DNA from: Styela clava
Lineage: Eukaryota > Chordata > Ascidiacea > Stolidobranchia > Styelidae
NCBI RefSeq assembly: GCF_964204865.1
Contig: NC_135250.1
Location: 1,364,001 to 1,428,000, forward strand
DNA length: 64,000 bases
Direction: 5' to 3'
Shown here: positions 22,031 through 57,392 of the stretch, in pieces
How positions within the stretch are numbered: the first letter of the stretch is position 1
Layout of the letters: every line of letters begins with the position of its first letter
The notes under the pieces: model-generated
What the model was told of the DNA's origin: nothing
Database searches by the model: none
What the model saw: the letters and a program-made list of their open reading frames with translations, nothing else
Program-made: the position numbers and the translations under genes

Positions 22031-22210
22031 AAATATGAAAATCCTATAATATTATGACCTTCGACCCTTAAAGCGTATCAAATTGTATTTTCTATTCCGC
22101 TCTCTGGCTCTGATCTTTGTGGGTCTAGTTCTCTTTTTCCAGTTTTCCGTTGACCTGTCGTTTTCAATCGTTTGAAATTTTTGTAGATTTGAGTTATCAC
22201 TTAGGGTTCT

Positions 22211-23125
22211 ATGGCTTCGGCAGTTCAACCTCAGCCTGCACAGGCTCCAACAGTAAACGGAAATGGCGGTATGAAGTTGACAGACACTAAACGAGGTAAA
22301 GTCCTTCTGGGACAACTTTCATCTGATTTTTTGAGAATAAAAACCGCTGTTTCAACAGGACAATCAAGGAACGACGCAACCCTGGCACAGCAAATGGCGT
22401 TACAGCAGCAACAAATGCTGACACAAACTGCTGTTGCAGGAACTGCAAACAGATTGAATTTAACTTTAGTTGAAGCAAAATTAAATAAGAATTATGGTGT
22501 TACAAGAATGGATCCATACTGCCGTGTTATTGTGGGACATGCAGTTTATGAAACTGCAACAGCACAAAATGGCGCAAAGCTTCCATATTGGAATAAAACT
22601 ATTTCAACTACGGTGGCACAGGATTTAAAACATATCAAGATAGAAATTTACGATGAAAGAGCCTTTTCTATTGATAACAGAATAGCGTGGGGTAAAATTG
22701 ACATTTCGGACGCGATAAAAAGTGGGAAATCTGAAGATGATTGGTGGCCGTTAAGCGGAAAACTTGGCGACGAAAAGGAAGGAATGATACATTTACAAAT
22801 TTCATGGTCCAAAGTTCAGCAACCAATTATATACAACGCTCCAATGCCGATGATGTTCCCACACGTCTATAATCCTGCTGGTGTACCTATGATGATGCCC
22901 GCGGCAGCAGGTGGGTACATGGTGCCACCTGGTGTCCAAGTCGGGGGTATGTATCCACCAAGTCAGCCGCAAACACAAATTCAGCAACCCGCGATCACAG
23001 AACAAGATCTCAAACAAGTTAAAGAAATGTTTCCGAACGTGGAGGATAGCGTGATTAAAGCAGTTCTAGAAGCAAGTGGAGGAAATAAGGATGCAGCTAT
23101 TAATTCTCTATTAAATATGCAATAA
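22211..23125 (+). CDS. TOLLIP: Toll-interacting protein (TOLLIP), intronless
   Basis: A single 304-codon frame. In order: a Tom1-binding-type region near residues 28-45 (GQLSSDFLRI), a Gln-rich stretch to about 72, a C2 domain at about 81-199 (RLNLTLVEAK, DPYCRVIVGHAVYETATAQN, IEIYDERAFSIDNRIAWG, EGMIHLQISW), a Pro/Met-rich linker, and a C-terminal CUE domain at about 262-304 (LKQVKEMFPNVEDSVIKAVL, GNKDAAINSLL). The order and the key motifs are those of vertebrate TOLLIP (274 aa); the excess length is in the linkers. In the family, C2 binds phosphoinositides, CUE binds ubiquitin, and the protein links IL-1R/Toll signalling to endosomal sorting and selective autophagy. The ATG is the first in frame. 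TTTTTGTAG at about 22178-22186 upstream could be an acceptor for a 5' UTR intron. Confidence 0.97.
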   Translation: MASAVQPQPAQAPTVNGNGGMKLTDTKRGKVLLGQLSSDFLRIKTAVSTGQSRNDATLAQQMALQQQQMLTQTAVAGTANRLNLTLVEAKLNKNYGVTRMDPYCRVIVGHAVYETATAQNGAKLPYWNKTISTTVAQDLKHIKIEIYDERAFSIDNRIAWGKIDISDAIKSGKSEDDWWPLSGKLGDEKEGMIHLQISWSKVQQPIIYNAPMPMMFPHVYNPAGVPMMMPAAAGGYMVPPGVQVGGMYPPSQPQTQIQQPAITEQDLKQVKEMFPNVEDSVIKAVLEASGGNKDAAINSLLNMQ

Positions 23126-24849
23126 TAAGTTTGGTTTAAAAAATAGGAATGTAACATGATGTAATATACTTCAGAAAAAAATTCATCCTTATCGTGTAGT
23201 CATTGAAGCTGAAACTAGCAGCATCAACTATATTCTTCTAAGATGGTAAAATCTTCCATTTCATAACTTCTGTTGCTATTTCATTTACATAAGTGAAAGT
23301 GCGTCTTTTTTAAACTGTCCTCTTTTTTGTATTTAATGTTCCCTACCCATTATAATGATCCTAAACACGGTTGACTGCTAGTCCATTAAACTCAGAACAA
23401 CAAAAAAACAGAGGATATTCCCATCAAGAATATTCCATCCAAATATTTGAATACATCCCTAATTGAAGATAGTCGATACAGTAAAATTGTAAAATTAGGA
23501 AGAATTAAAAATAATTTTGTTTAAAAAATTTATCATTGTAAAGATTTGACATCCGATATCAGACATAATTCACCTTTGACACTGTAATGTGTGAAATATA
23601 TACTATTTGAATCATTCTGCAATACCAATTTCAATTTATTACGAATTTACAGTTATTTGCTCAAATATCTTTTTTTTTCATAATAGTGCTTATAAATATA
23701 GTAATTATACTTGCAACCCCACAACGAGAAAAGTACAGCAATTTTGAAAATCAGTATTCTGGCTATTTCTGACTCGTATTATCAACTGTTTTAAATATGA
23801 AATATCCAGTTGTATATTATGGAGAAAATGTGTTTGTTCATCTATTGAAATATTTCAGATATTTTCATGCTAGTGTTGTTTTTTGTACATACCGTAAATA
23901 TTCTCTTAAATTATGCTTTTAAATAGGCATCAATTATGTTTGTGAGGTATTTCCTTATGTTAGAGTAACTTCTGTCAGTCAGTAGTTTATTTTTCACCAA
24001 AATGAAAATGCACTCACAGTGAACATACACTTAAAAAAAGTTGAAAATGACATTTCATATTGAAAGGTGACGCGAACAACCAAAGTTGGTTATCGAGCAG
24101 CGACACCTGTGATAAGAGTCTAACTTTGATACAAGTTTAATAGAAATAAGACGAACAATATATATATAAATTAATATATCAAATATTAAAGTCGAAAAAC
24201 CAAATTTGTTGTCATTTCATTTACTTTTAGTTTTTTACTATTTGTTATGGACATCACTGGTAACCAGACAAGATGCTGCCGTAGATGGTATTCCCATTAC
24301 CCGGTATAAATATCCAAATCCTTTCCTTTTGCTACTTTGTTAACTGAGCAATGTTAGTTCATTGTTTCCCAAGATCTTTTAGGTTCGACATTACCTATCC
24401 AATTTATAAGCTGAAAATTACGGCTGTCGTGTATTTTGGTCTAATTTGGTATCCTTCAGTCTCCTCCACTTCCGTAAATTAATGAAGCCTGACTTGTTAG
24501 AATATCTGATTGTTATCCGGGAGAAACCAATGCTGCTATTTCATGCTTCATAGATTAGCACCAAAGTAAAATTGTTCTAAATCTAGTTGTTTATGTTTAT
24601 TATTTCATTTAATCATTGTTCTTATACTACTATGTCTAATAATCAATATTTTATTGTTAATATTTTAATTCAGCTTTAAATTAAAGTTTATCGAAAAATC
24701 TAGTTTTAAATTCTATACAAAGGACGAAGAATTAATAAATTTCTGTGCAAATCAAAATCTGCCTGTACTTCGCAAAGAGAAAATTTATTATTTCTGAATT
24801 GGATAAAAGTGCCAGATTTTGCTCATTTTGACAATATAAATCAACTAAA
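23126..24849. other. TOLLIP-PPP4R1 intergenic region
   Basis: It contains the TOLLIP 3' UTR and the PPP4R1 upstream region; both genes point right. I see no exon. ATTAAA at 24186 is a variant poly(A) signal, but no canonical AATAAA stands out. At 1.7 kb the gap is too large for an ascidian-type operon pair. Confidence 0.5.
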
Positions 24850-27795
24850 ATGACTGATTTACGGATCGTCCTAAACCTTCCGAACGAGGATATGGAGGTG
24901 GACATGGACGAGAACTTTGACGACCAGGAAGATGACAATAATGAAGGTGACCAGCACGGTCAAATGTCATTTAGCACAATTGGTAGCGGAATTATGGCTT
25001 TTAACGATTCTTCAATTCCGTCACCACTCGATGTCACTACACCTGAAGAGCTTCTGACACCGTTAGCAAGATTGAGATGTTTCGCTGTTAGTGACAATAT
25101 ATTTAATCGTAGAATGATTGCTCACGATGCTTGTAATGTTTTTGAAGCCGTGCAAAATGACGAGAAAGATTTCGAATCTGCTATTCAGTGTTATCTCAAG
25201 CTTTCAGAAGATTTAGAACCGTCAGTTCGAGTCGAACTCATGGAACAACTTGCTGAGATAACAGAAATATTTCATACAAGATTGCTAGACAGTGCTGTGG
25301 TGCCTATTTTACTCCGATACCTCACTGACGTGAATAATCAAGTCCGCAAAACCTGCCATAGTGTTTTAGTAGACATAACCAAAGCTGGGTATTTAAAAGT
25401 TGGTCAGTTTGAAAATGAAATTTTACCGTTGCTAAAGGATCTCACTTCACGTAAACAGGCCCCTGACGAATACCGTACAGAAGCTATCGCCCTTGTGTGT
25501 CAAATTTGTGAATCCTTCGGCTCAGAATTCGCAAAAGAATATTTTTTGCCAATATTTTTGGATTCTTGTTCTGATGACACTATATTTCATGTCCGTAAAG
25601 TTTGTGCCGCCAATTTTTCAGCATTTTGTGACATTCTCGATGATGCACTTATCAACAAAGATCTTCTGCCGCGATTTATCGGTTTATGCAAAGACAATGT
25701 ATGGGGGGTGAGAAAATCTTGCGCAGAGAGTTTCCCTGACTTTGCTAAACACATGTCTGAAGAAGTTCGTATCAACACGCTCTCTCCATTGTACAGTGGC
25801 CTTCTATCAGACCAATCTAGATGGGTCCGCGTCGCAGCTTTCGAGTCTCTCGGACCTTTTATATCTACGTTTGCTGACAGCAAATCGGCGAGTGATAATT
25901 TTAATCAAGCGGCAACAGGTGTGCCTGGTTATAAAATCACTGATGATGAACTGAAATATGATTTTGATTCCTTCCTTTACTGGCGTGACCCGATACCACC
26001 CGTCACTTTCGAAGAAGATTTTGATGATGTCACTCCGATGGATCAAAACAAGGAAACAGACGAAATTCAGTCTCAAGTTTACGTGAATAGTTCTAATCCC
26101 ACCCACCAAAACGAGGAGGATAAACCGGATGAACAATTAGAGCAAAAAGAAACAAGTAAGCAGCTGAAAGTTCAAACTGCAGTTGAACAACAGGATGATG
26201 ACGTTTATTCACCGACCAAAGATGATGTTTTGAAATCGATTGAGTTTTCAGCGGAAAAAGAAAACATGCCGATTCATTTTGATATTAATTTGGATAAAGC
26301 CGAAAACGAGAACGCTGAGTCAGCAGAAATAAAGGATGATAAACAAGAAGAAGAATATGATGAACTTAACGCCGTTCCTTCGATAAATTTAACAACAACA
26401 AATGGAAATGTCGAAGTATTTACAGATGATTCTGGATTGGAGAAAACCACAGAAGAAGTAATTCCAAATGACGATTCTGATTTAGCAAAAGGAGACTCGA
26501 CAGAAAGTTCCATTACAGAAGAGACCAAAGAGCAAACTGAAACCGTCACAGAGAAAACGCCCTCGGCTGCAGAAAACGGAAATCAAGAAAGCAGCGAGGA
26601 CAGTGATGATGAATACTATGATGAAAACGAGCCACGAAATTGGCAAAGTCCGAGTTTACAGGAATACCCAGATTTGTATGAAACGGAATCGAGTGATAAT
26701 ATGGAAATCAATTATCGAATGTTCAGTACGCTTAATGATATCAACTACACTCGTGATTTTGCCGACCGTATTTCCGGATCAGATCACTATGCCCATTTCG
26801 ATCCTATATCTTCTGTACATAGTCCCACTTCCAAAGCATCAAGCCAGCAGTCAGTCATTCCACAACAGTTGCTTGATAATTTCTTATCAATGACTGATCC
26901 GTCTAGAAAGCAAACCGTAGACACTGAAATAACGATGCACTGTGCTTATAGTCTTCCTGGTGTCGCGTACACTCTCGGACGAAATAATTGGCATTGTTTG
27001 AAAGACGTTTACCAAAAGCTGGCTTCAGACGTACAATGGAAAGTTCGGAGAACAATAGCGTCATCAATTCATGAATTGGCAAAAATTTTAGGCGAAGAAT
27101 TGACAGCGACTGAGTTAGTTCCAGTTTTCAACGGATTCTTGAAAGATTTGGACGATGTTAGAATCGGAGTGTTGCGCCACCTAGCAGAATTTTTAAAGCT
27201 ACTCAAACCTGAAGTCCGTGGAATATATCTTTACCAACTAACGGACTTTCTCACTATCGATAACAGCCGTAATTGGAGATTCCGCTATGAGCTGGCAAGA
27301 CAATTGTGCTCTCTCACTGAGCTGTATAACTGTGACGACATTGTGAAGTATATTTGTCCAATAACGATGCGTCTGGCCACGGATAGAGTCGTCGCAGTTC
27401 AAGTGGAAGCTGGAGGACTAATCGGGAGGCTTTTGAACGAACTACATGAATCGGGGGATGAGAGAAATTTCCAGATTTTTACGGAGCGAGTTACGTCCGC
27501 ATTGGCGAAGAGTACTCGCTGGAAAGAACGGGCATTATTCTGCAAAATATGCAACCTTATTCTACGAGAGCTGCTCTTACCGTTCAACATATTTTTAAAG
27601 TATTTTTCAACTACATTGGTCGAGATGGCACGCGACGGAATAGTGAATGTACGAATAATCGCAGCCCAAGCTCTCTCGTACGCTGTCCAAACGTTCTGTG
27701 ATGAAGGGGAGGGAGAGGAAATGTGTGCAATGCTCAAAGAACTTCAAAGTGACAAGGACAGAGATGTCAAGTTTTTTTCAGCAATATCTTGCTGA
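24850..27795 (+). CDS. PPP4R1: Serine/threonine-protein phosphatase 4 regulatory subunit 1, intronless
   Basis: One uninterrupted 981-codon frame. Residues 1-60 are acidic. About 65-335 are HEAT repeats with KDNVWGVRKSCAESFPDFAK, QSRWVRVAAFESLGPFIS and FHVRKVCAANF. About 395-600 are a low-complexity acidic linker rich in Glu, Asp, Lys and Asn. From about 620 to the end HEAT repeats resume (WKVRRTIASSIHELAKILGE, NWRFRYELARQL, VAVQVEAGGLIGRLLNEL, VNVRIIAAQALSYAV). The split HEAT architecture and length match PPP4R1 (about 950 aa in mammals). The family scaffolds the PP4 catalytic subunit and directs dephosphorylation; it has been linked to restraint of NF-kB signalling. The whole gene lacks introns, unlike the vertebrate gene. 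Context near the ATG (tcaactaaaATGact) is good. Confidence 0.96.
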   Translation: MTDLRIVLNLPNEDMEVDMDENFDDQEDDNNEGDQHGQMSFSTIGSGIMAFNDSSIPSPLDVTTPEELLTPLARLRCFAVSDNIFNRRMIAHDACNVFEAVQNDEKDFESAIQCYLKLSEDLEPSVRVELMEQLAEITEIFHTRLLDSAVVPILLRYLTDVNNQVRKTCHSVLVDITKAGYLKVGQFENEILPLLKDLTSRKQAPDEYRTEAIALVCQICESFGSEFAKEYFLPIFLDSCSDDTIFHVRKVCAANFSAFCDILDDALINKDLLPRFIGLCKDNVWGVRKSCAESFPDFAKHMSEEVRINTLSPLYSGLLSDQSRWVRVAAFESLGPFISTFADSKSASDNFNQAATGVPGYKITDDELKYDFDSFLYWRDPIPPVTFEEDFDDVTPMDQNKETDEIQSQVYVNSSNPTHQNEEDKPDEQLEQKETSKQLKVQTAVEQQDDDVYSPTKDDVLKSIEFSAEKENMPIHFDINLDKAENENAESAEIKDDKQEEEYDELNAVPSINLTTTNGNVEVFTDDSGLEKTTEEVIPNDDSDLAKGDSTESSITEETKEQTETVTEKTPSAAENGNQESSEDSDDEYYDENEPRNWQSPSLQEYPDLYETESSDNMEINYRMFSTLNDINYTRDFADRISGSDHYAHFDPISSVHSPTSKASSQQSVIPQQLLDNFLSMTDPSRKQTVDTEITMHCAYSLPGVAYTLGRNNWHCLKDVYQKLASDVQWKVRRTIASSIHELAKILGEELTATELVPVFNGFLKDLDDVRIGVLRHLAEFLKLLKPEVRGIYLYQLTDFLTIDNSRNWRFRYELARQLCSLTELYNCDDIVKYICPITMRLATDRVVAVQVEAGGLIGRLLNELHESGDERNFQIFTERVTSALAKSTRWKERALFCKICNLILRELLLPFNIFLKYFSTTLVEMARDGIVNVRIIAAQALSYAVQTFCDEGEGEEMCAMLKELQSDKDRDVKFFSAISC

Positions 27796-33986: not shown

Positions 33987-36900
33987 TTACAACCGCTCAT
34001 ATCCAGATCTCCGAGATGTTGGAAGTGCTCTTTCACGCCAACTTCTGGTCGGAGTGTTTCTTCTTTCTTCTTGACTAACTGGATGCCCTTGAACAGATCC
34101 TTTATAAATACAAAATCGAATGCTCATGTTAAAGAGGTTGAATAATTCACAAGCAAACAAGTCATCAACACATTGAACCTTACTGATTGCGTACACCAGA
34201 GGTGTGCAACCTAGGCCAAATGTGGCCCTCAAGGAAAAATTGTGCTGCTTGCAGGGAAATTTAATTTGGTGCGTGCGAGTAATTCCTTTGCTTTGCAAAG
34301 CCTATACCTTAGTCCAATCTATTATCTATGCCAAGGCTGCCCAACCTACGGGCCACATGCGGCCCGCCGAACAGTTTTTGCCGCCCGCCCTATAAAGTTT
34401 GTAAGCAGACTTTCTAAATTTTTACATACATTTTACTATACATAAGTATCTTTCGTGATTTTGGTGTAATTATTCCTGTCATCTATCTACGTTCAAATGC
34501 CGGTTCTTATTATTATGTTTGTGTCAAGTCTTGCATTTTATCAAAATATACGACCAGGCGCTGATAACAATTCATTCATAGTTTTTCTGAGATTAATTTT
34601 TGATTACTGCAACTGTATTGCACATCAGGGTCAATTGATGCATGATGGTATGATTAAGAAAATAGCTAACCCGTAGTGCCTGGCACATTATAATTATGGC
34701 TTTGTCCAGAACCAACATTGACAACCCCTCCACCATCCAGTACGACATCTCCACCGTTTTCTCCAAAGTTTGCATTGGCGGTTTGAACATGATATTGTTG
34801 AAGAGGTTGGGTGCCAGCTGTAGTTCAAAAACATAACCGTATGTGTTTATAAGGAATAGAATTTTCATATTAAGAAAACAAAGCCAGACCGATGGCTTGA
34901 GCACATGGCGAAGCAGGTTTCTCATCTGGGTACCAGTGCCAAAAATTGTTTCACAATTTTCGTTCCTCGTACTTAATAGTGAGAGAGAGAAAGAGATTCA
35001 TTTTTTGCCAACCAGAAAAAAACAAGCATTCTAGCAATAATAAAAATATACAACAACATACTCGTTCGTTATTTCGTTTAGGTTCTATTTGATTTCTGTA
35101 ATATTCTGTGTTATATAATATTCATACCCGACATGGACTGGTAACAGGACAAGAAGCCATGGTTAGCCATATTATTAAGTCGTCTTATCGGCTTTCATCT
35201 CCCCCAAAATAAATATGCAATAAGTCTTATCCTATCCTATAAAGTTTGTATAAAAGCATATCTACATATATTATAATCAATATACCTGAATTTAAGACAA
35301 ATGGTTCAGTCTTGATCAGGTCGCCATTTTCCTCTATTTTGAATTCGAGAACGAATTTGCCTCTTTCCGAAGCTCTGGCAACAAAACTATACGCCACCGT
35401 GTGGTCGTCCAGAAGCAACTGATCCTCCAATTCGTGACCTTTGTCTGGGTAGACAGGAACAGACCTTGCTTCGCAGTTTAGCTTACTCTTGTATTTTCTC
35501 GAGCTGTACATGATAATGGGGATTGATACAGGGCGAATAGTGCTGTATCCATCATCAATCCATGTTTGTAAAGTATTCTTCAGTTCTTCCTCATTTAACC
35601 CATACAGAACACTTATATCGTGGGGATCCTTCTTGACTATGTAAACATGTACAGTGTATTTGCCGGCTGAAAAATATCATTTAAATTTTTATAAGACAAA
35701 GATTTAGAAAAGGGCCAATCTGGCCACGGGCAAGGACTTTCACTAAATACGGGGTGACCTAAAAATGTAGGTCACGGCAGTTTTGTGCACCGTTGGGAAT
35801 ACGCTCACCACCGTGCACCACTAATTACCCTGCCTAGGTTCCCAGGCTTGAATCCCATGCGAGGATGATCATGTGCGAGAGGATTGCTGGAATCATCGCC
35901 GCCGTAGGCTGGTTCACGTAAGAACCGCTGGTCTGTTACAGCTTCCTCCACCATCAAGTCCAGCATCTGAAACAAATAACTGTTCAACTAATCCTATACC
36001 CGACATGGACTGGTAACTAGACGAGGCAATGGTTCACCATGTGATCAAGCCGTCTTATTTTTTTTCTTCTCTCCCGGGATAAATATGTGAATCCTATCCT
36101 GACATACTTACTACATTTCTTATAAATTTCTTTTTTCTCCCCAACTAGGCCATGAGAATTTGTTGCTTGAATAGTGAAGCGGTATTTTACTCCTGGTGTT
36201 GGTGATTTGAGCCAAAAGTTTGACAGGTTCGTATCTTCACTGCCAATGAGATTCCATCCCCACCAACTCTTTTCATAGCTGTTAATTTTGTATCGAATAT
36301 TGTCTTCTTCAGCTTCGTCCCAAGATAAAAATATCTTTCCTTTGTCTTCATTAACTCGCAAACCACGTATTGGCGTTGGATCTGTAATAGTGTGGTGGCA
36401 GTTTTTTTAATCAGAAGGGAACGTTATTTTGGGATCTGCAGGAGGTTGCTATGTTCAATATTCCAACAAACTATAAAAATTTAATGATAAAAACTACAAC
36501 GAATTACATAATGTAATATTGTGGTGGCAATGTTTTTGGCGTTCCGGAAAGATGTGCACCAAGATCGCGAACATCGGTTAGTGTACCAGGTTAGGGCATA
36601 ATTTTATTTCAATTCCAATGTAAGCATTAGAAATAAATAAATAAGCATTTAACCTCATAACCTGTTCGTTTACTCTACATGGGTGCACAAGGTGTATTCA
36701 AGCTATCTCATAGACCAGGAGTGGGCAACTCCTGGCACGCGTGCCAAACTTGGCACGCGAGCCCATTTATTCGGCACGGGAGCGAGGCCTCGAAGACGAG
36801 ATTATTCTCCTTTAGATAAAAAGTTTCGAGGCTCTGATTCATCCGATGAAGCTCGGTGTTTGTTTATTCATTATCGTTTGTTAACAATCTGTTATTCATT

Positions 36901-39900
36901 TAAAATTTTAAACTCTTTTTGTCTTTTCATGACATGGCTACAAAGAAATATATTATGACATAACAACTGAGTTAGCTCTTGACTAATTGTGACGAGACAC
37001 AGCATTCATTGGGTTCATTGTTACGTAATATATAGTCTGTGCCACAATTTCTCTTCATTTCTGATTGATTTATGGAAGTTGTACAGCTCATGTTGGTTAG
37101 AGTTACTTGCTACCTTACTGAAATAAATAGATTTCGAAAGAAATATAAGCAATTATAGAAGGGAATACAAGAGAGAAGTGCAGAAAACGAACTATCGCAT
37201 GATTGGGAAGCCATTCCCGAGAATTTTTCGTGTCTCAAAAACTTTGCAACTGCATGTTGTTATCTACATATGCTTGTGATTTTCTGTTCTCAGTTATGCA
37301 CTTTATTAAGGCTCATAACAGGAGTAGCCTGAAATATGAAACCAGTAGTTCAGAATTTTTTTTCAATGTAAATCTCTATCAACGGTAATGCAGTAGCAAG
37401 AGTCTCACTTATATAGAATAGAAAAAGTAATAAAATCTATTTGTCGGACTCATATTTTCCCGAATAGTGAATCTGTCTGTAGCTTACATGTTTAGAGGGT
37501 ATATTATTGTGTATTTTTGCTTTAAAAGTAACAAAGCATTGTTTTTAATTTTGATCGGGACGCGGAAGAATTTTGTCGTTAAATTTAGCCGATTTGGGCA
37601 CGCGAGCCGAAAAAGGTTGCCCACCCCTGTCATAGACTACCCTGAGATGAACATAAAATTCCTATCCTATATGACAAACCTGTCCAAAATATTCTGCTTA
37701 TTCCTGGACCATTGATAACTCCTTCAGCATTTCTTGGATAAACAACAACTTTGTACTCAGACGACGGTCTGCATCCAACAATGGTAAAAGATGTGTCATT
37801 GAGTTTGCTTTTTTGTCTCTTTAAAAAATCAGAGAAAATATATGTTAAGTCAACAGGCAATAAAAAATAACTGACAGCAATATTATCCTTTGATTAGGAT
37901 GGGATTATTCTGCCAATCTTATCTCCGCTGAAAATGAGTTCAAAGGAAATCAAATCCAATACGGTGGAATTCAGCGATTCAGTTTTGTTATGTTTAGTGG
38001 GTGAGCGAGAGAATCGTTAAATTAATGAAATAGTAGAATTTATTGTCGTTGTTGCAATCAATTCTTTTATTTTGGATATTTGTAAGTAAGAGTATTTTCA
38101 CACATTCAAGCAAGAACTTGAAAGAAGCTCTAGACATGCAGCAACAGATAGGATGGGCTTTACATATTTATCCTGAATGTGAAAAAAGTCAATGATAAGA
38201 CCACTTAATCATATGGCACACAACAGCCTCTCGCGTTTTTACCGGTCTATTTCGGGTATGGGATTAGTTGGCCTGTTATTTGTTTCAGATGCATAGACAT
38301 GACGGTGAAAAAAGCTGAAACCGACCAGCAGTTTCTTGAACCCCCCCGCTATGGTGGGGGGTAGTCCAGCAATTCTCTCGCACATGATTTCTCTCCATTC
38401 CCGGTAGCAAGAGTATTCCTAACACTTAGCATGACGCGCCGCACTGCCAAGATACATTTAGAGCTATCATTTTTGGAAGAAACTATTTCTTCTCTGTTCT
38501 GTGACGCATCTGCTCAATTTTTAGACTCTTGTGTGAGAATTAGGGTAAAACATGAGAACTTAAACCCTCAGACCGAAAATGGTTGGGTAAAACGCTCTAG
38601 CAAGGGCCCGAGGATCTTGTTAGAGATCACAATGGTTTTAGCCCGATAACAAGGTTTTCCGGTACGACCTCTACCATAAACATTGACCCAAATGCAGTTT
38701 TGAGTGAGGGGAAAAAAATGATAGGGTTTTAAACTTTCAAATGAAATTGAAAATAAAACTATAACCAAAAAAGGATGGATTTAATTATTTAAACATCGTA
38801 TTAAAAATTATAAACGTGGAGTAATAACTAGATGGTTAAAAGCTAGAGTCTTTGAAATTTCCGGTAGCTTGGACTCCATCCAGTTGGTGAACCTGGCTCC
38901 AGCTCTTAAAATATGCTACTGGTCCAGGTTCCAATTCCTGATCCCGGCTCTAAACGTATTCAATTCTATTTCTCACCTCAAGTTCTTGGTTCCTAAAGAC
39001 TACAACATTGTGAAAAACTGCATCACAAGCAGGGGCGGACACCCGGGGGGGCGAGGGGGGGCGGTCGCCCCCCCAATAATTTCGCAAAAAAAATTAATAC
39101 ATGTTGTTTCCGCCTTACAAAATTATCATTTCCGAAAAGTGCGATAGTCAAGCGCAATTAAACGGTTAATAGTCACCGATATTATAACTGTTTTCTTACA
39201 ATAATGGACCAGGGCGCCTTCGGAGCATCTCACATTTTCGTGAAACATGCGCGCCCGCACGGGTAATACTCCGTCTTCAAACGCACCGCCGATCACGCGC
39301 CATGGTTTTGCACAACTAATTCATTTTTGTACAATTTAATATGATTTTCTCATTGTCAAAATCTTTCAATAGTGTTATTGTTGGCACTTGCGAGAGAAGT
39401 GAATGAGGCAAACTGTTTTTCATTACAACAATTAATTATTATCGCTAAAAAATTAACTAGATCTAAAGTTGTTATAAACAATTTTCACCGCTGGACGTAT
39501 CTTTTCACGTTATGGATTTCGTGCAAGGCCCAGCATAACTTGCGGGCAAAGATCAAAGCATTTACTATGTCGAAAAGTTGAAAAGCGGCAATATAAAATA
39601 CTAAAAATAAAACTGTAAATAATATAAGTTTTGTTGAGGCCCGCAATAGTCTAAAATCGCAAAATTTCACAAATTATGTTTGCTTGACCTTTAAAAACAT
39701 TTCGTCACTAAAATCGAAACACGGTCAATTGTGAGCGGCATTTACTTTTTTATCCATTACTTTTAAATTGACGTTGAAAATTTTCGTGTTAACATTAAAC
39801 AAAGCTGACAACGCGACTTTTCCCCGGTTTGTGATGATATATAAGATATTAAAGTATATTCGATCACTTTTTGTATTTATTTATGTATTTTTATTGTACT

Positions 39901-41857
39901 GAAATAACTTTTACTACGTGAGAATTGACAGAAAATTTATGAATTTTTCGAAAGGTTTTATCTTCAAAAATAATCGGAGTGACAACATTGCGATTGAGCG
40001 GAGCCAGTGTGACAAGTACATCTCAAATTTATCAAATTCGCAAAATAGCAAAAATACGGATCAAAACAATATATAAACGGGCAGTTTACCACACATTTTT
40101 ATGTCCGCGGATTGCCGTCGTGTTTTAGAGTAGCTCTTGTTTTGTCGACTCATCCGCAGTTTAAATTGAAGACAATTAAATTAATAAATCAAGACATTTT
40201 GAATATGCCGGTATCGGTCTTTGATTGATTACTTTGCACAAGTGAAAAATCATTTTTCGTTGATAAAGTCGGCTCTTTTAACAAGTGGCGTAATAGCGGC
40301 GACTGTTCCGCGTGGATTTCGAGGCGGTGAATTTGTATTTTTGATTTACTAGTATACTTTATAATTATTTTCATTGTATGAATTAAAATTGTACTATATG
40401 GGATTTTATATCAGATATCGAGATTTTTGTAAAGGCGATAACGAGTTCGGAAGATTGCAAAAATACGTATCAAAATTAAATACATCAGGCAGCTTATTTC
40501 ATATTTTTATTTCCCCATATCACCGTGGTACTTTAGTTTAGTGATATTTTTATTTTGACGTAAGAAGTCGCAACCGCGGGTTACGCTGCACACAATTAAA
40601 TTAATATATAAGGACATTTTAGAATCTCGTGGCTGTCATGGATCGACAGAAAAATCATTATACGCTTAAATAGGCGGCTCTTTTAACGAGCGCGTAATCG
40701 CGGTGCTTGTTGCAGACAGCAATGGGAAGTTCCGACCTCAAATTTGTTATTTTCTGTTTGTTAGCAAGAAATTGGTTCAGTGACGCGCAAGTTCCGTGTC
40801 CGAGCAAAGCAGCCTAGGTAATCGATATATGAGTAGCAAAATGACATGCTAATACTTAGAGAATGACATCGACAGGTTATTGTTACGTGACGATACACGG
40901 CGCTGTGTTTTTCGGTAAGCGATCCGGGTTCGCCCCCCCAAAATTATGGAAAGTGTCCGCCCCTGATCACAAGCTTTCTTGATTTCCCACCGTGCTTGGA
41001 AGCCAAAATCCAGAATTCTCTTAAGATATAATTTCTTCACAATATGAGGCACTGAAAAAAAGCATGTTGCATAAAAATATGTTAAACACTTTTTTTAAAC
41101 ACAATTTTTCATAAGGGAGGGGAGGGGCTTTATTAAAAAAAATTGCTATGTTTTTTGTGTTTGATTGCTGACAGAAGCTGGATATTGATGTATTTCATGA
41201 TCTATCCTGGGCATAATGGACCTGAGCAGGCGTTCTTAATCTGGGTAACGGAAGGGGTACCCATGGATCATTTTGTTCCGCCAGCTTAGGTTTACTTTTA
41301 TATATACATCGATAGTTTATACAAGACCACTGGCACAGCTACAGTTTCCATCAGCATCAACTAACGAGGGACTAGAAGTACTTCAAATTAAAACAGTAGG
41401 GCAGTGAGGGAAAATATGCTATACGACGAAAAAAAATTCCACAGAACAGAAAAAAACTGTATGATTGAGTGCCTACCTGAACGCCTCAGATGTTGGGAGG
41501 CTCTAATGTAGTCTTCCATTACTGTAAATACAAAAACGTTTTGTTAATATTCTAGGAAGGTATTTCCGTATTTAATAGAATTGAGAAAAAATTAGATGCA
41601 GCAAAAGACCTCACACTCCTCGCGCTCAAAAGCTGGAGCAAAGTATGTTTGAGATATGGTAGTTATTACCACCGTGCAGCAACCGCAGAGTCTTCATTTA
41701 GTTTGAATAAAATTATTTGGTCAATAAATATTTATATATATACCGGTACTTCATACATTGCCATGGCTGCTAGTCATCGCATGGTAATATCAGTCAATAT
41801 CACTCCAAACTTACCTTCATCTGGACTTTGCCAGGGGACTGACTGGTTACTTCCCAT
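33987..41857 (-). CDS. FN3 gene copy 1: myristoylation-type N-terminus, two FN3 domains, unknown domain; exon 3 split by a hAT
   Basis: Eight minus-strand exons: 41815-41857, 41477-41521, 40966-41051 plus 38977-39021 (one exon, split by a transposon), 37680-37818, 36112-36381, 35286-35666, 34671-34817, 33987-34099. Phases agree throughout (1 everywhere except 0 between exons 3 and 4), giving 422 residues if the insertion is ignored. The N-terminus MGSNQS fits an N-myristoylation signal (G2, S6). Exons 3-4 form FN3-1 (GFQARWEIKKA, IVGCRPSSEYKVVVYP). Exon 5 is FN3-2 (WLKSPTPGVKYRFTIQATNS). Exon 6 is a ~127-residue domain I do not recognise (DDGYSTIRPVSIPIIMYSSR, LEDQLLLDDHTVAYSFVARA). Exon 7 is Gly/Asn-rich and exon 8 is basic (RRSGYERL, stop). 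There is no signal peptide or membrane segment, so a cytoplasmic membrane-bound protein is inferred. As sequenced, the transposon should inactivate it unless spliced out. Confidence 0.7.
34196..34400. mobile_element. hAT end fragments in intron 7 of FN3 copy 1
   Basis: CCAGAGGTGTGCAACCTAGG near 34196 and CCAAGGCTGCCCAACCTACG near 34330 are two left-type hAT ends, the second followed by GCGGCCCGCC. No right ends or duplications could be matched, so both are truncated. Confidence 0.4.
35108..35240 (+). repeat. SINE 3' fragment
   Basis: ACATGGACTGGTAACAGGAC through AAGTCGTCTTATCGGCTTTC to the TCTTATCCTATCCTAT tail matches the SINE 3' half. The tRNA-like head is missing. It lies just outside exon 6 of FN3 copy 1. 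Confidence 0.65.
35780..36100 (+). repeat. tRNA-derived SINE in an intron of FN3 copy 1
   Basis: Begins near GGGAATACGCTCACCACCGT, has B-box-like GGCTTGAATCC, the body motif GGCTGGTTCACGTAAGAACC and ends CCGGGATAAATATGTGAATC. It fills most of the intron between exons 6 and 5 and points against the gene. Confidence 0.75.
36716..37629. mobile_element. hAT element, 914 bp, perfect target duplication, in intron 4 of FN3 copy 1
   Basis: Left end CAGGAGTGGGCAACTCCTGG followed by CACGCGTGCC; right end GGTTGCCCACCCCTG. The flank TCATAGAC is perfect on both sides (36708-36715, 37630-37637). A related element sits in the matching intron of copy 2. No transposase recognised. Confidence 0.88.
38148..38445 (-). 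repeat. Degraded tRNA-derived SINE
   Basis: Minus-strand copy: AGGATGGGCTTTACATATTT at the tail end, the body motif CCAGCAATTCTCTCGCACAT, and a decayed head (CTAACACTTAGCATG). It carries small changes throughout and a C-run. It lies in the intron after exon 3 of FN3 copy 1. Confidence 0.6.
39030..40965. mobile_element. hAT element inserted in coding exon 3 of FN3 copy 1
   Basis: Left end CAGGGGCGGACACCCGGGGG; right end GTCCGCCCCTG, preceded by CGCCCCCCCAAAATTATGGA. The flank ATCACAAG is perfect (39022-39029 and 40966-40973). Deleting the element and one flank copy leaves an exon of exactly 131 bp, the same length as the uninterrupted exon in copy 2. The 1936-bp interior shares a long core with the hAT at 48045-50151. 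No transposase frame survives. Confidence 0.92.
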
Positions 41858-42390: not shown

Positions 42391-44300
42391 TGATAACAAA
42401 GATGAATAGATTATCATTGCTTTATTAACAGAATATCAAGTAATAGAGCACAGAATCACACAAATTGATAAAATATAATCCAAACACAAACAAGAGACAA
42501 TCGGATCAGCCTCCGCCCCCACTTGAAAAAATAACTCAGGTGTGAACAAACTATGACAACCACTACGGAACAAATCTACGAAATCCACCGCAAAGTAAAG
42601 TTACAGGTAACCACTGCAATGCTAAGAGCCACTGAAACAATAATAGAGTTATGATAGACACAAATCAGTTCAAAAGCAGTGGCTCTAATACAGTGTTTTC
42701 AGCCAAGGTTCCGCGACAACCTAGGGTTCTGCCAGTACAGAGATTTGTAAGCTTGCATTCAAACCAGAGCGTCTATCTATATTATATTAATATAGGTATA
42801 TTGTTTAAATATACAATGAAATACTTATCAGGTTTGCCACTTATATTAAATTTTAATATTTAATACTGCTTTGATAAATTTCTATAGTTTATACAATTCA
42901 ATTAATAAAAGACGATCAAACTTTTGCTTGGTTTCACAATCATTATGCAGCATAATAAAACAAACGAAACAAGTCACAAAGAAACTCTATCTGTTGGATG
43001 CACAAAAAAATATCATAGCTATCTTTTCTTTATATCAATGTTTTTAGCATGAGGTGCACGCGCAGCCCCAGGGATGCAAAAAGTGTTCTTAGAGAGTGTG
43101 AGAATGGTGAATCATGAGGTTTGGTTAAAAGTACAAGGCCTTTAATACATTGAATTGTGAAAAAACTCTCCCCTCTTCTCCTTTATCATAAGACTGTTAA
43201 AATGAGATACATGAAATTATTGAATGTAATACAATGGCTTCGCTATTTACACATATGTAAATACCTTTTTTCAGCAATTCTAGAACGGGGGTGCGATAAT
43301 TTAGGGACAATATTATAGAGGTTCAAAGTGGAAAAAGAAATAAATCCTTGTGTTAGTTGAGCCATATGCTCATGATGAAACAATACTAAAGCAGAAATAA
43401 AGATGACTCTTTTAAGTGATTCAAGATTATGCGCTCTAACACAAATGGCACAAAAAATAAAAAGAGGAAACTTCCTGTACAAAAATATACTTGTGTTAGT
43501 GTTCAGTAAGACTCCTAAATCACATCACAACTCAAAAAGAATCGTAGTTATCTAACTGTCTGTACTTAGATTATGCTAGAGCAAGCATCAATAAGTTGAA
43601 ATTAGAAATTTATATTGCACAAATAATAATAATACCATAATGCAATGTCACAAAAAGCATAGATAAAAGTCGATAAAAAACAACAAGATATTGCACTTTT
43701 TAAATCAATTTTATTCTGCGACAAACTTTTTATGCATAGTGAGGGAGAAATAAAGAAATCCAAAATAGGTGAAAAAGAAAAAAAAGTTAGAACCATTACT
43801 GATAGCAAATGTTAATTAGCACTAGCAGTGAATTGATAAACATGTTATCTTAAAGTTAAGCATGATGAATCAACAATCATAAACAAACAATATAAAGCTA
43901 TACATTTAATCTTAGTACAGTGCGGGTATGAATATGAGCACTATCTATGTAGGTATATATAGGTAGGTACTCCCAAAGTATGTGTACTAAGTTGGCGGAC
44001 ATCGGAACATAGTGGGCATATATGTACCAGGTTAGGGTTAGGGCATAATTTTATTCCAAGTATTTTGTACCTGAAATTATGGCCTAACCTTAACCTTCTA
44101 CACTTACTAAGTTCCGGTGTCCGTCATCTTGGTTCACGTACTTTGGGAGTACCGGTATTTTTATATTGACACACAGAATAAAATCAGGTAAGTAATTTGC
44201 ATAAATTAGAGAAAAACACATTTGAAAAGGCCCAATTCTGATAATAAAGAAAACAAAGCATAGGAGATTAATCAAATAAGATGAATAAAAATTCACTATC
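42390..44300 (+). repeat. Repeated block A (also at 60040-61800)
   Basis: It shares with 60040-61800 the order TTATCATTGCTTTATTA, ACAGAATCACACA, GTAAAGTTACAGG, GGTTCTGCCAGTACAG, GGTTAGAACCA(T/C)TACTGA, AAGCATGATGAATCAAC, and AAATCAGGT(A/G)A(G) near the end. Similarity is patchy, with inserted elements. It forms the 3' flank of FN3 copy 2; the other copy lies just 3' of the FN3 module at 63.2-63.5 kb, which suggests a segmental tandem duplication. Confidence 0.6.
43966..44153. repeat. Foldback MITE, complete copy
   Basis: GGTACTCCCAAAGTATGTGT and ACGTACTTTGGGAGTACC are the ends. GGCGGACATCGGAAC pairs with GTTCCGGTGTCCGTC, and CAGGTTAGGGTTAGGGCATA pairs with ATTATGGCCTAACCTTAACC. Almost the whole 188 bp can fold. 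Family members also lie near 2000, 6339, 14296, 36540 and 46522. Confidence 0.8.
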
Positions 44301-44689
44301 ATAATTTGATTTTCTTGAAGCTAGAGTCGTTTTCCACAGTCCTGTACATAAGTGTGTGGTGATGCACGAATTAAGCTTGTTTGACAAACAAACTTATGTG
44401 TTTTTATACAAGTTTGCTCGTTTCTTGCTCGAAACATCACAACGGTCGATATCCAGGTTTCCGGGTTATTGAGTTAAAGCTGGATCTTCTAAGCGAACGT
44501 CTGATTCGATTGTTTGGTCTATTTCCTTGAGGAACTGAATGTCCTTGAACAGATTCTGTATAAATAGAACATAAAATAGCTTAGATCAGAGAGTTCAAAT
44601 AATTCACAAGTAAACTGAATTGATTGTAGGTATAATGGGCGAGCGGTTTAAGAATCATTCTTCAGAGTTTACACATTGCAAGTTCAGGA

Positions 44690-44850: not shown

Positions 44851-45552
44851 GCTTAGGAGTTGACCTACTATATTGGTGTCACAAGATCTTGAGTTCGAAT
44901 CCAGGTCCTTTACATAACTTGTGAGAGTGCCTTTAATTGTGTAGGCAAAGCTATTTATTAACACTGTATTTTTTCCTGATGTGATAGATCCATATCCACA
45001 AGTGACAACTAGTCCAGAGCCTATTTCTTTATAAAAAGGTAAAATATGTAAAAACTATGTATTTTGGAGAATTTTTCATATATGTACAGAGTTAGAAGGG
45101 ACCACCGAACTGCTAAGGGCTATTTAAAACTGTAAAGATGCAATGAACGCCAGTACTGTAAACCCAATATGATCAGGAGAATAGCTAACCTGTAGAAATG
45201 CCTGAATTATGGCTTTGTCCAGAACCAACATTGAGAACCCCTCCTCCCTCAACTTTAACATCTACACCGTTTTCTCCAAAGTTTGCATTGGCAGCTTGAA
45301 CATGATACTGATGAAGAGGTTGAGCGCCAGCTGAATATCAAAAACATAACAGTAAAGTTAATACAATGTATGATAATATTATATTATTATTCACATGGGT
45401 GAGGATGGCTTTAATGTGGATAAAATCCGATTGAAAAATATAATTCTCTCAGAGCAGAATTCCCTTCCGATTTTTTTCTGGAACCAATTTTCTTCGAAAC
45501 TCTTTCGAAAAGATTTGCCGTAGCATTATAAACGTTGTTCAGTAATTCACGT

Positions 45553-46630: not shown

Positions 46631-47702
46631 AAAAAATATACAATATATATAGCATTCCATAGTTAATATACCTGAACTTATGACAAATGGTTCAGTCTTG
46701 ATGACGTCGACATTTTCCTCTACCTTGAATTCGAGTACGAATTCGCCTTTCTCCGAAGCTTTGGCAACAAATTTATAAGCCACCAGGTGGTCATCGAGAA
46801 GCAACTGATCCTCCAATTCGTGACCTTTGTCTGGGTAGACAGGAACAGATCTTGCTTCGCAGTGTAGCTTACTCTTGTATTTTCTCGAGCTGTACATGAT
46901 GATGGGGATTGATACTGGACGAATAGTGCTGTATCCATCATCAATCCATGTTTTTAGATATTTTTCCAGTTTTTCCTCATCTGACATGTATAAAACCATT
47001 ATATCGTTGGGATCCTTCTTCACAATGTAAATATGTACAGTGCATTTGCCGGCTGGAAAATATGTTTAGTTTTGTGTAATCGAGGTAAATCTTTCATCTT
47101 TATTCCAGACTCAGGAAAGCTAAAAGTATGAATCTATAATATGGTGGACTGATTGAAGTTTTTGACCAATTGCTAGCATGTCTCACACATTTTTTTCAAG
47201 GTACAAACCTAAATGCATAGTAATCTAAAAATCGACCAGAAAAAGAAAACAGCATACAACAAGATACTTCTACATTTCTTATAAATTTCTTATTTCTTTC
47301 CAACTAGGCCATGAGAATTTTTTGCCTGGATTGTGAACCGATACTTTACTCCTGGCGTTGGTGATTTGAGCCAAAAGCATGGCTGTGTCGTATCGTCACA
47401 GCCAATGAGATTCCATCCCCACAAAAAAACCTTTTTATAGCTTTGAATTTTGTATCGAATATTGTCTTCTTGAAGTTCGACCAAAGACAAAGAAATTGCA
47501 TCTTTGTCTTCATTCACTCGCAAACCATATATTGGCGTTGTACCTGTGATAGTGTGAAATTTTTTTTTAAGAGCAGGTGACACTATAACGAAACACTTCT
47601 GTGTGAGTGAGCTTGCTTGAAACAATTTATACCAAGGAGACAGACACAATACATATATGTAAGTATTAGGAGATAGAAAGTAGACTTGCTTTTGCACGTT
47701 AG

Positions 47703-48045: not shown

Positions 48046-50151
48046 AGAGGTCGGCAACCCCTGGAACGCGTGCCACAATTGGCACGCCAAGTGATTTAAG
48101 GCAGATTCAGATATTTATTTTAGTAGTTCGACAAACATTCTACATTTGAACAAAAAATACCAATTCGACAAATTCATTGATAAAACATGTAATATTCAAC
48201 TGCAATCGACAAGAAGCCAAAATCTGTATGCGAAATCAGTGTAAATAGGCGTGTGCGGTGCGGTTTGCCACATTTTGCTACTTTCGGAAAAGCAATGGAT
48301 CACAGACTGAAATCTGTACGGGAAATCAGTGTAATTGAGCGTTTGCGTGCAGGGTTGCCAGATTAGGCTACCTTCGGAAACGCTTCGCTATTGAAACTAC
48401 ATGTTCAACTACCATCGACTTTTTATACTACTGTTGGGGTACCTTTTGCTCTCTAAAAATCGTGATATATTGAATATTATTTTATCAATTCATACTTGGG
48501 CAATTCGTACAACTTTTTGCTAAAATCGCCCTTTGTTTTTGTCAGCGGGACGTGTTATTTAGGTCGTAAACACTTTTAAGTTGGTGTTTATTCTCCCCAA
48601 ATCACAAAACTTTTTTCACGACAACGATAATAATTCCTTTCTTTTTGTACTCGCTCGCTCAGAATTGTGAATTCGCTGATAGTTATTATACAATAATCGG
48701 CGGCGAGTTGCTTGAGTCAAATAAAAGAGTGAATCGGCGACGCAAATTTTTTTATGGAAAAGCAGCAATATAAAATACTAAATATGGAACCGCAAACGTC
48801 GCAAAATTTCGTCTGCCTAGGGTATGCATAAGTTTGGACGGCGTTGACAATCATAATGTCACTAGAATCAAATTCGCACAGTTAGTTGTGTGCAGATTTT
48901 GTTTTTTTATCCATTACTTCGAATTGCGGTCACAAATTTTCGTGTTAATATTATACGTATCATATTACAAGGTTGGGAACGCGACTTTTTCCTGAGTCGT
49001 GGTGATATATAAGATAATTAATTAAAGTATATTCAATCAATTTTTACTGTACTAAAATAAATTTTACTCCGTGAGATTTTATAGCAGACTTGGGATTTTT
49101 CTAACGGTTTCATCTTGGAAATAATCTGAGTGGCAGCATTGCGATAGAGTAGAGTCATTGTTGCAAGTACAGCTCAGATTTGTCGAATTCGCAAAACGGC
49201 AAAAATACGGATCAAAACTAGATATAACCGAGAAGTTTACCACACATTTTTATGTCCGCGGATTGCCGTGGTATTTTAGGGTAGTGAATAGTGAAGCATT
49301 TATTTTGTCCACACAACCGCAGGTTAAATTTAGGATAAGTAAATTAGAATAAAGCAAGACAATTTAAATATGACTGTATCGGTCATGGATTGATTACTTT
49401 GCATAACGGAAAAGTCCTTCCGCAGGGATTTCAAGGCGATAAATATGTATTTGTGATTTACTGATATCAACACATTGAGCGGTATTTTAGACTATTAATG
49501 TTTATATTTTGACAAAAGAAGACGCAACCGCGAGTTACTATGGACACAGTTATATCAATATAGAAGAAAGTTTTATAGATTCTCGTAGCTGTCGTGAATT
49601 GAACATTTTACGCGACAGAAAAGTATACACTGAAAGTCTTTCTTCTTACGAACGCTTAATCACGGAGACTGTTTCAGGAGGAAATGAAATTTCCCGATTT
49701 GACCACCCTGCTTTTTGAAAATTCTGGTCAAGCGCCTGGCTGACTGGGTACCTCACTGAAGCCAAAATTTTGATCATGTAGCGAACGCTGAAATGATAGC
49801 ACAGACATGCAAAGAGTCAGCATGTGTATCCCTAACAAAAATGATGGAATAAATTCTCTTTTCTTTAGTATTGACGCGTTCACATCTTTTCTGGCTACAA
49901 AACTAATTGTGAGTGGCCTTCAAATCTATTAATTAAGTCGTGCAAAGACAGGTCGAAGGTAGAAATGCCATATGCTGAAAGCTCGCGTTAGCTAATTTCC
50001 ATGCACGTTATCGTATAAAATAAATCTGTTTTACATTCTCTTACTATTCAAATCAGGTAGTTGCAAACCAAACACATAAAAATGTTTGGCACGCAAAGGT
50101 GCTCGTTATTCATAAAATGGCACGCTGAGTTCAAAAGGTTGCCGACCCCTG
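48045..50151. mobile_element. hAT element, 2.1 kb, in intron 4 of FN3 copy 2
   Basis: Left end CAGAGGTCGGCAACCCCTGG followed by AACGCGTGCC; right end GGTTGCCGACCCCTG. The ends resemble the 914-bp element at 36716-37629, but the interior (about 48610-49740) matches the interior of the hAT at 39030-40965, for example ACACATTTTTATGTCCGCGG then ATTGCCGT. Flanks do not match, so the left edge was altered, probably where the SINE joins. Confidence 0.72.
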
Positions 50152-51587
50152 GAATACTCTATCCAAGCAATTGGCTCGACTTATAGACTTCCCATCGCTG
50201 CAATAAATATAAAATCCCTATCCTATATAACAAACCTGTCAAAAATATTCCGCTTATTGCTGGTCCATTGACAACTCCTTGGGCATTTACAGGGTAAACT
50301 ACAACTTTGTACTCGGACGACGGTCTGCATCCAACAATAGTGAGAGATTTGCCATCTAGTTTGTCTTCTTGTCTCTATAAAAAATCGGAAAAAAATCTGT
50401 TGAAGACGGCAGGCAATCAAAACCAAGTGACACCAGCTATTTGGAACAAGCTTATCAACTCATCTCTTGATTGTACTGGGTGGGTTCGTGTATGATGGGT
50501 GGATTGTAATGATATTGCATAAGAGACAAATGATTGAACCTTCAAGCATTTCAGGGTTGTTTACATATTTTATACAGAAAGGGCAGAGGTCTTTCGTATG
50601 ATTAAGCCAACTTATTGTCTTCCTTCTCCCACATATATTCTATATTTAAATAGCTGTATTCTGCAATGCCATTAACCTTGAACATAGGCTCTGGACAAGT
50701 AGTCACTATTTTGAAATGACTGGAACCTTTAAGGTTATGCATTGCATATTTGATTTTTACAACCTTGGTGAGGTGGTGGATATAGATGGGTTGAACCTAA
50801 GATTTTGATTCGTAACATAGTCGGTGCAATGCTCTAAGTAGAGGTTTGTCTTCAGCCCCACTAGAGGGCTACTCAATAAACTACTAGCAAATGGATCTGC
50901 TAGGTACCATTTCAAATGACTACATTAATTTGAAGTTACTCGACGGTAATTTTTTAATTCTTGGGATGCGGTGGGTTTCTTGTTTTATGTTCATTTGCTG
51001 TTTTTTTAACAATTAAACATGGATAATGAAATAACTGATAGAAACCAATTAAAAGCAGAACTAAGGTATTTTATATTGAGAAGCATGAAATTTTGAGAGT
51101 TTTATAAAAGGGACGATGGATGATGAAATCTTGACAACCAATAGCCCTGACCACATCACACAACTCTAATTCTCGCCTCAAGTTCTTGATTCCTATAGAC
51201 TTCAACATTGTAAAAAACTGCTTCACGAGCTTTCTTGATTTGCCACCGTGCTTTGAAGCCAAAATCCAGAACTTTCTCAAAATATAATTTCTTCACAATA
51301 TAAGGCGCTGAAAAAATACTTATCGCATAACAATAGGTTGACCATTTGAAAAATTGTATCTAGAGTCTTGCAATAACCGCTGAAAATTAGAAACAGAGAA
51401 ATCGATAAACTTTAGATTGGATAAACTTACAACAAGGACTGTTTTGAAAACAAAATATCTTTATGTATATATATAATATATAGCGCAGAAAATGGCCATG
51501 AAATTATTAAATTATCATCAAGGGAGGGGATTTATTTCCAAATGCTAATCAATATACTGCCATGCGCCGAACCTTCATTTAGTCGGA

Positions 51588-52536: not shown

Positions 52537-52919
52537 CTGAAAAACGAAAAATATATCTGCGAGTACGATATTCAATGATTGCAAATAAGGAATCAATAGA
52601 AAACTACCCTACACCTTTGAGTGGAAGTTGTTGAATTGTATAAATATTGATTAATATTAATTGAATATCATTAGACTGCTAGTTAAAAGACCTGAGAAAG
52701 AAGAGATTGTGGTTGGGACACAAGAGAAATTGTTCACAAACCATGCAAAAACCTTTTGATGTCGGTCAAACCACACACATGTATGTCATTATCTTAGCCA
52801 TTAACATCACACTAACCCTTACACATTTGCATGCTATACACAGCATAAATTCGACCAAGGATAAAAACTTTGTACACACGCAGGACACAGCATATAGTAC
52901 TACAGCAAGTTAAAATGTA

Positions 52920-53551
52920 GGGGAGAATCCAAATATACCTCGACTGGTCACCTAATTACAATATTAGGTACAGGAGTTAAATTATACCGTCTACAACCCT
53001 CACAATAAATCACACCACCCAAACAGAAAACAGAGTTCACGCATGTGGAATATCAAAAACCCAACATTGAAAGAAAAGAAAACATGCGCATGCAGATATC
53101 AGAATGTGAACAGCCATATTAAGGAAAATCTTATGCTATAGAACAAAATAAATGGCCAACTAGAATGCAAAACAGATGGAGAGAGCTCAACTGCTAGTTC
53201 AAAATTAATTAGTAATCTCAGAAACAATAACAATAGGGGAGAATCCAAATATACCTCGACTGGTCACCTAATTACAATATTAGGTACAGGAGTTTAATTC
53301 TACTGTCTACAACCCTCACAAAGAATCACACCACCCAAATAGAAAACAAAGTTCACGCATGTGGAATATCAGAAACCCAACATTGAAAGAAAAGAAAACA
53401 TGCGCATGCAGATATCAGAATGTGAACAGCCATATTAAGGAAAATCTTATGCTATAGAACAAAATAAATGGTCAACTAGAATGCAAAACAGATGAAGAGA
53501 GCTCAACTTCTTTTTTAAAAAATAAATTAGCAATCTCAGAAACACTAACAA
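52920..53551 (+). repeat. Tandem duplication, two units of 316 bp
   Basis: The unit beginning GGGGAGAATCCAAATATACC at 52920 restarts at 53236, and the two are nearly identical until about 53510. The left unit ends with AACAATAACAATAG. It lies just beyond the 3' end of the minus-strand LINE, so it may be a duplicated LINE 3' UTR. Confidence 0.8.
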
Positions 53552-56640: not shown

Positions 56641-56646
56641 TTGAAA

Positions 56647-56843
56647 ATGGTTATTTCGTATTGTTCCGCTGGCTGTACGTATAGTATAGACAACGAAATG
56701 GATCTTCAGTTATATTCCACTGTTTTCAAAAGCTCCGGAGCGTCGCGCAATGTGGATATCATCTATTGGTGGGACTGCTTGATGTCAAGTCCAGAAGCCA
56801 TCTCACTTATGTTTCACTGTTTGCGGAGAGCACTTCGTTGATG
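56647..56843 (+). pseudogene. THAP zinc-finger exon, frameshifted
   Basis: The start frame gives MVISYCSAGCTYSIDNEMDL. A shift then gives PLFSKAPERRAMWISSIGGT, an in-frame stop, and CGEHFVDG directly before a GTAAGT donor. C-x3-C, the P-E-R-R-x-x-W block and C-x2-H-F are the conserved parts of the THAP DNA-binding domain (a C2CH finger found in P-element-type transposases and their host derivatives). One frameshift and one stop make this copy non-functional. It shares its layout with the minus-strand copy at 59537-59645. Confidence 0.8.
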
Positions 56844-57127
56844 GTAAGTCATAATGTGCCGTTATCAATTTTTTTGAATATTCATAAGCTCCCTCATTTC
56901 AATGGAAAGCAGATGACAAACTACTGTTATTGGTAGGCCTAGGCGTAGGCCTACTTGCAGACTCGACTCGTGTAAGGTATTAATCAATAATTGCCATAAG
57001 GTATTGTTTCCCTAGTTAGCTATTAAGTTAATCAATTAGTAAGTGTGAAAAGTTGAATAGATAACTAAAGTTTAACACCAGTGCTAATGCAAAAAATAAC
57101 CAGAATTCAACTGAATTCTCCATCTAA

Positions 57128-57392
57128 GAATACGCTCGCCACCGCATCTCTGATCCCCCTGGGAGTTTCACAGGTTCCAACCCCATGCGGGGATAGTTAT
57201 GTGCGAGGGGATTGCAGCTCTCCTCCCAATGAGGGTGGTTCACACGACCGCTGGTCGATTACGACATCTCCCACCATCAAGTCCATGCTTCTAAAACAAA
57301 TAACTGGATAACTACTCCCGACATAGAATGGTAATCGTACGATGTTGCACCTTGCAATCTGTCCCCAACCACAGATAAATTCTATCCTAAAA
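57128..57392 (+). repeat. SINE inside the left inverted-repeat arm
   Basis: AATACGCTCGCCACCGCATC, AGGTTCCAACCCC in place of the B box, and the body GGTGGTTCACACGACCGCTG. The extreme head is missing. The same truncated copy is at the same place in the right arm. Confidence 0.75.

Follow-up and report, generated by a model that had tools for sequence, protein, structure and literature searches.

We analyzed a minus-strand gene (copy A) at positions 33987-41857 of a 64,000-nt stretch of contig NC_135250.1, referred to as the window, together with its relatives; all coordinates are positions within the window. The reading that we tentatively favor, at somewhat less than an even chance, is that a small, lineage-specific tandem family of animal genes encodes, or recently encoded, a leaderless, membrane-tethered fibronectin type III (FN3) scaffold, and that both close copies present here are damaged. 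As judged from sequence comparison, the family members in the window are two close copies, A and B, and one diverged FN3 relative, copy C. A duplicated family with the order FN3-FN3, unplaced 127-residue exon and Gly/Asn-rich exon, as proposed in an earlier sequence-only reading of this DNA, is supported. The same reading proposed that a 422-residue product is encoded in the window, and this did not hold: neither copy in the assembly makes a full protein by ordinary splicing, because exon 3 of copy A is split by a hAT-like insertion and exon 5 of copy B contains a stop codon.

For exons 1, 2 and 4-8 of copy A, the segments are open, their phases agree and their borders are GT/AG. Using a 131-nt exon 3, the eight exons total 1,269 nt, corresponding to 422 residues and a stop codon. 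However, exon 3 is discontinuous in the DNA, so this sum holds only when the insertion is omitted. Since the sequence-only reading never mentions the insertion, it must have bridged it; its eight phase-consistent exons stand as regards segments, phases and sum, and what it left out is the split in exon 3.

The element divides exon 3 into 41051-40966 and 39021-38977. It is 1,936 bp long, carries CAGGGGCGGAC in inverted orientation at both ends, and is flanked by a perfect 8-bp target duplication, CTTGTGAT (40966-40973 and 39022-39029). Because matching inverted ends are combined with an 8-bp target duplication, the element bears a hAT-like transposon signature. When exon 3 is read straight into it, the frame stops after 38 codons. 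Eight open reading frames (ORFs) of at least 60 amino acids overlap the element; the six lying wholly within it were scanned, the two running out of it being omitted, and these six gave no Pfam match above the cut-off, with no hAT transposase recognized. The insertion therefore looks like a non-autonomous hAT-like copy. A diverged relative of the element matches approximately 48858-49602, in the copy B interval that separates exon 4 from exon 5. Elsewhere in the window, an ORF at 16212-16645 (+) contains a hAT dimerisation domain (PF05699, 23.7 bits, cut-off 21.4) and is directly preceded by a one-mismatch copy of the insertion's end.

Table 1. Exons of the two close copies, the insertion in copy A and the diverged third segment; percentages are identities between copies unless stated otherwise.
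Feature	Position	Strand	Evidence
Copy A exon 1 (MGSNQSVPWQSPDE, myristoylation-type start)	41815-41857	-	Phase; donor AAG/GTAAGT; in-frame TGA upstream; paralogue not found
Copy A exon 2	41477-41521	-	Phase and splice borders only; paralogue not found
Copy A exon 3 part 1, first half of FN3-1, 86 nt	40966-41051	-	100% to query; 72% identity with copy B exon 3 over 43 residues
hAT-like insertion, 1,936 bp, no recognizable transposase	39030-40965		Inverted ends and 8-bp target duplication
Copy A exon 3 part 2, 45 nt	38977-39021	-	tblastn and frame reading
Copy A exon 4, second half of FN3-1	37680-37818	-	Copy B 74% identical; Pfam fn3 15.3 bits alone
Copy A exon 5, FN3-2	36112-36381	-	Pfam fn3 23.0 bits alone; copy B 75% identical
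Copy A exon 6, 381 bp, 127 residues, unplaced, probably beta-rich	35286-35666	-	No gaps against copy B, 82% identical
Copy A exon 7, Gly/Asn-rich, VNVG core	34671-34817	-	76% identity with copy B over 45 residues
Copy A exon 8, basic tail and stop	33987-34099	-	42% identity with copy B, E 0.007
Copy B exon 3, uninterrupted, donor GC for GT	51177-51307	-	tblastn, 72% identical
Copy B exon 4	50236-50374	-	tblastn, 74% identical
Copy B exon 5, in-frame TAA at 47292-47290, changed donor, limits approximate	47271-47543	-	tblastn, 75% identical
Copy B exon 6, 381 bp	46672-47052	-	tblastn, gapless, 82% identical
Copy B exon 7, limits approximate	45188-45331	-	tblastn, 76% identical
Copy B exon 8, weakly matched, limits approximate	44437-44555	-	tblastn, 42% identical, E 0.007
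Copy C, diverged third FN3 segment, relative cut by the window edge	63178-63492	-	29% identical to exon 5, E 1.9e-6; Pfam fn3 18.5 bits, below cut-off

To compare the copies, we searched the window by tblastn with the copy A exons, which placed copy B from approximately 51.3 to 44.4 kb, oriented like copy A and with paralogues of exons 3-8. At E<=1, the tblastn search detected nothing in copy B that corresponds to exons 1-2, and these two exons of copy A are predicted from splice signals. The damage differs between the copies, with the insertion in exon 3 of copy A, and a stop codon and changed donors in copy B. The gapless alignment of exon 6 bears out the claim that this exon is exactly 381 bp in both copies, and exon 7 retains ANANFGENG and NVGSGQSHN in both. 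Among 1,581 ORFs of the window, a hidden Markov model (HMM) of the three exon 5 segments recovered those three and no other at E<=1, and the exon 6 and exon 7 HMMs gave two matches each.

We then estimated nonsynonymous (dN) and synonymous (dS) divergence between copies A and B with NG86, skipping the stop codon of copy B and excluding exon 8. Over the 349 codons of exons 3-7, dS was 0.28 and dN 0.13 (dN/dS = 0.47). By exon, dN/dS was 0.42 for exon 4, 0.51 for exon 5, 0.36 for exon 6 and 0.42 for exon 7. This range of 0.36-0.51 points to past constraint on exons 4-7, without implying a present function of either copy. Nucleotide similarity between the copies is limited to the exons and at most about 60 bp of flank, the remaining matches being the element, repeats and short matches. 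Exon dS is 0.28, yet the introns show no detected similarity beyond about 60 bp from the exons, repeats apart; gene conversion or fast intron turnover could account for this dissimilarity. In addition, a 60-bp repeat (82% identical) occurs at 44167-44226, some 200 bp beyond the stop of copy B, and at 61696-61755, 1.4 kb beyond the FN3 segment of copy C, and may represent a shared 3' flank.

The FN3 domains claimed in the sequence-only reading are backed by Pfam. The 422-residue product, joined across the insertion, scored 31.8 bits against fn3 (gathering cut-off 25), with two stretches at E<=1, whereas exons 4 and 5 scored below the cut-off when searched singly (Table 1). The product contains four cysteines, and 8 of its last 37 residues are basic and 4 acidic.

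The N-terminus of copy A is best read as a myristoylation-type start without a leader. An in-frame TGA lies two codons 5' of the MGSNQS ATG, the exon 1 donor scores highest among the seven donors of the gene (on a rough scale), and MGSNQSV fits the N-myristoylation substrate pattern. Exon 1 is the only one of the listed copy A first-exon candidates to fit this pattern, and the product may thus be N-myristoylated. The fit agrees with the earlier claim of a myristoylation-type start, but comparative support is lacking, because no counterpart of exons 1-2 was found in copy B. The claim that the protein has neither a signal peptide nor a membrane span agrees with our results. Single first exons with an ATG and a phase 1 donor were sought in the roughly 4 kb preceding exon 3 of each copy; none of the six candidates for copy A resembles a secretory leader, and none of the 11 for copy B has a hydrophobic one. 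Likewise, no hydrophobic span was found in the joined product, in which the highest 19-residue Kyte-Doolittle mean was 0.44.

Several observations weigh against a leaderless, membrane-tethered protein. Exons 1-2 have no paralogue, and the lipid anchor may be wrong; the joined product has three N-glycosylation-type sequons that would be usable in an extracellular protein; borders in phase 1 are frequent in extracellular modules, and phase-1-bordered FN3 domains are typical of them; and exon 3 alone gives a dN/dS of 3.15, from just 13 changes. The sequons, the phase 1 borders and the failure to find exons 1-2 in copy B would fit an extracellular FN3 protein whose true leader-bearing first exon was missed and to which exons 1-2 do not belong. 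Nevertheless, with no leader among the single-exon candidates upstream of either copy and only four cysteines in 422 residues, we regard an extracellular protein as unlikely.

A more serious possibility, which we rate only slightly below the favored reading, is that both copies are plain pseudogenes, with working family members elsewhere and nothing useful made from this region. The insertion in copy A would be expected of a pseudogene, as would the stop codon and changed donors of copy B and the lack of any match to exons 1-2 there, whereas the dN/dS values of exons 4-7 speak for past constraint, and the insertion may have arisen recently, may be polymorphic or may be removed by splicing. If it were spliced out as an intron, copy A would still make a slightly altered protein: the donor CTT/GTGATC within the target duplication and the acceptor GATGCAG/TTTTTC after it keep the frame. 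However, 13 of the 50 donor-acceptor pairs scanned keep the frame without a stop, so a kept frame is unsurprising, and this donor scores -2.2, against 0.8 to 8.5 for the seven donors of the gene on the same rough scale. Splicing of this kind therefore seems decidedly improbable.

If the family does encode a leaderless scaffold, its protein would begin with a short N-myristoylated head, continue with two FN3 domains, a beta-rich domain the size of one exon and a Gly/Asn-rich segment, and end in a basic tail. The lipid head and the basic tail would anchor it on the inner (cytosolic) face of the membrane, the FN3 pair might bind partners, as suggested by the FN3 family, and exon 6 and the Gly/Asn-rich segment might cluster the molecules. 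A more specific version, which we consider very unlikely, is a membrane-tethered signaling scaffold of the animal lineage whose FN3 domains would display an oligomerisation domain of the UPA type, with an amyloid-prone Gly/Asn motif after it. This would give inflammasome- or necrosome-like clustering without a death fold, in a family diversifying by tandem duplication and gene death.

The exon 6 domain itself is probably beta-rich, and the statement that it cannot be placed in a family was borne out. Neither copy of exon 6 matched a Pfam family at E<=5, although the tool drops most weak matches; the best PDB sequence match had an E-value of 0.17; and fold comparison of the predicted models (AF2 predicted local distance difference test, pLDDT, 68.8 and 67.2) gave no convincing match. 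The best lead, for which most tests failed, is the UPA domain, the half of FIIND found in NLRP1 and CARD8; this idea was raised after the fact, from one fold list and by eye. In comparisons of exon 6 with single UPA sequences, its score was reached by none of 229 controls for rat NLRP1, by 7 for human NLRP1 and by 55 for CARD8. With a UPA profile, the local score was reached by 0 of 150 shuffles and the global score by 71 of 150. The HMM ranks were 155 and 222 of 1,829, and the hhalign probability was 7.1. Of all these comparisons, just those with rat NLRP1 and with the local profile stood out. The favored local alignment (exon 6 residues 4-29) sets exon 6 residue 4 against approximately rat NLRP1 residue 1002, in no obvious agreement with the structural match range, which starts at rat NLRP1 residue 985. 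FIIND was not among the 50 matches listed in the fold search with the second exon 6 model. No ZU5 match was found in the joined product at E<=1, exon 6 being preceded by FN3 exons, and no ZU5 or death-fold domain was recognized.

From its content, the window is eukaryotic and probably animal: it contains spliced genes, repeats, long ORFs with C2-CUE and HEAT domains, a fragment of a hAT transposase, and a long interspersed nuclear element (LINE) that encodes reverse transcriptase and endonuclease domains. Two of the ORFs are uninterrupted and intronless here: a 306-codon ORF with C2 and CUE domains (22205-23125, +), which we take to be Tollip-like, and a 987-codon ORF with HEAT repeats (24832-27795, +), which presumably resembles PP4 regulatory subunit 1. 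An ORF at 8480-8845 (+) matches the Death domain below threshold (15.7 bits, cut-off 22.6). The LINE-like element (53694-56705, -) is broken, its reverse transcriptase and endonuclease being spread over at least three ORFs. Inverted repeat pairs I1, I2, I3 and I5 (89-97% complementary) are nested around a center of approximately 1.8 kb at 56615-59677, a possible large inverted-repeat element, and a 287-bp unit is present in two direct copies at 52918-53520 (95% identical, starts 316 bp apart). ARAGORN found no tRNA in the window, which is uninformative.

The main value of these results is corrective, in that the proposed protein was assembled across a transposon; its domains are therefore better studied in an intact relative. 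Should intact members exist, the family would contribute an FN3 architecture that has no leader and includes an exon-sized domain unrecognized by Pfam, and perhaps a UPA-like fold occurring apart from the ZU5-UPA module. No description of the FN3-FN3-exon 6-Gly/Asn architecture was found in the titles and abstract openings searched, which is no proof of absence, and no relatives were confirmed in viral and prokaryotic contig collections, a result with little bearing on an animal gene.

Among known systems, the insertion resembles hAT transposons in its target duplication and matching short terminal inverted repeats, and differs from them in having no recognized transposase among the six inner ORFs. 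UPA families are highly divergent, with 12% identity between CARD8 and UNC5b over the aligned C-terminus (PMC3210808), and UPA lowers the concentration required for filament formation by CARD8 and NLRP1 (PMC7794386), which would serve as a precedent were exon 6 UPA-like. UPA-ZU5 and FIIND modules are reported to be fused to other domains in animals, in a paper whose main text does not contain the term FN3 (PMC8195603). For exon 6, a kinship with the UPA of the FIIND proteins NLRP1 and CARD8 found no support from the human NLRP1 and CARD8 sequences, the HMM or the global alignment. Exon 7 was also compared with RHIM, whose tetrad is (V/I)-Q-(V/I/L/C)-G (PMC9444067). It is similarly a short Gly/Asn-rich segment with a VNVG (copy A) or LNVG (copy B) core, but N replaces Q in both copies, and exon 7 was rejected as a RHIM. 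The loose pattern [VIL][QN][VILC]G occurred three times in the 18,632 residues of 229 control ORFs, which makes it uncommon and proves nothing. RHIM-like motifs are reported beyond mammals, in flies, fungi and bacteria (PMC7889193), and a relaxed RHIM-like motif in exon 7 is conceivable. Finally, the joined copy A product differs from fibronectin type III proteins (PF00041) in that no leader or membrane span was found and a Pfam-unmatched domain follows FN3, and it resembles them in its two FN3 stretches.

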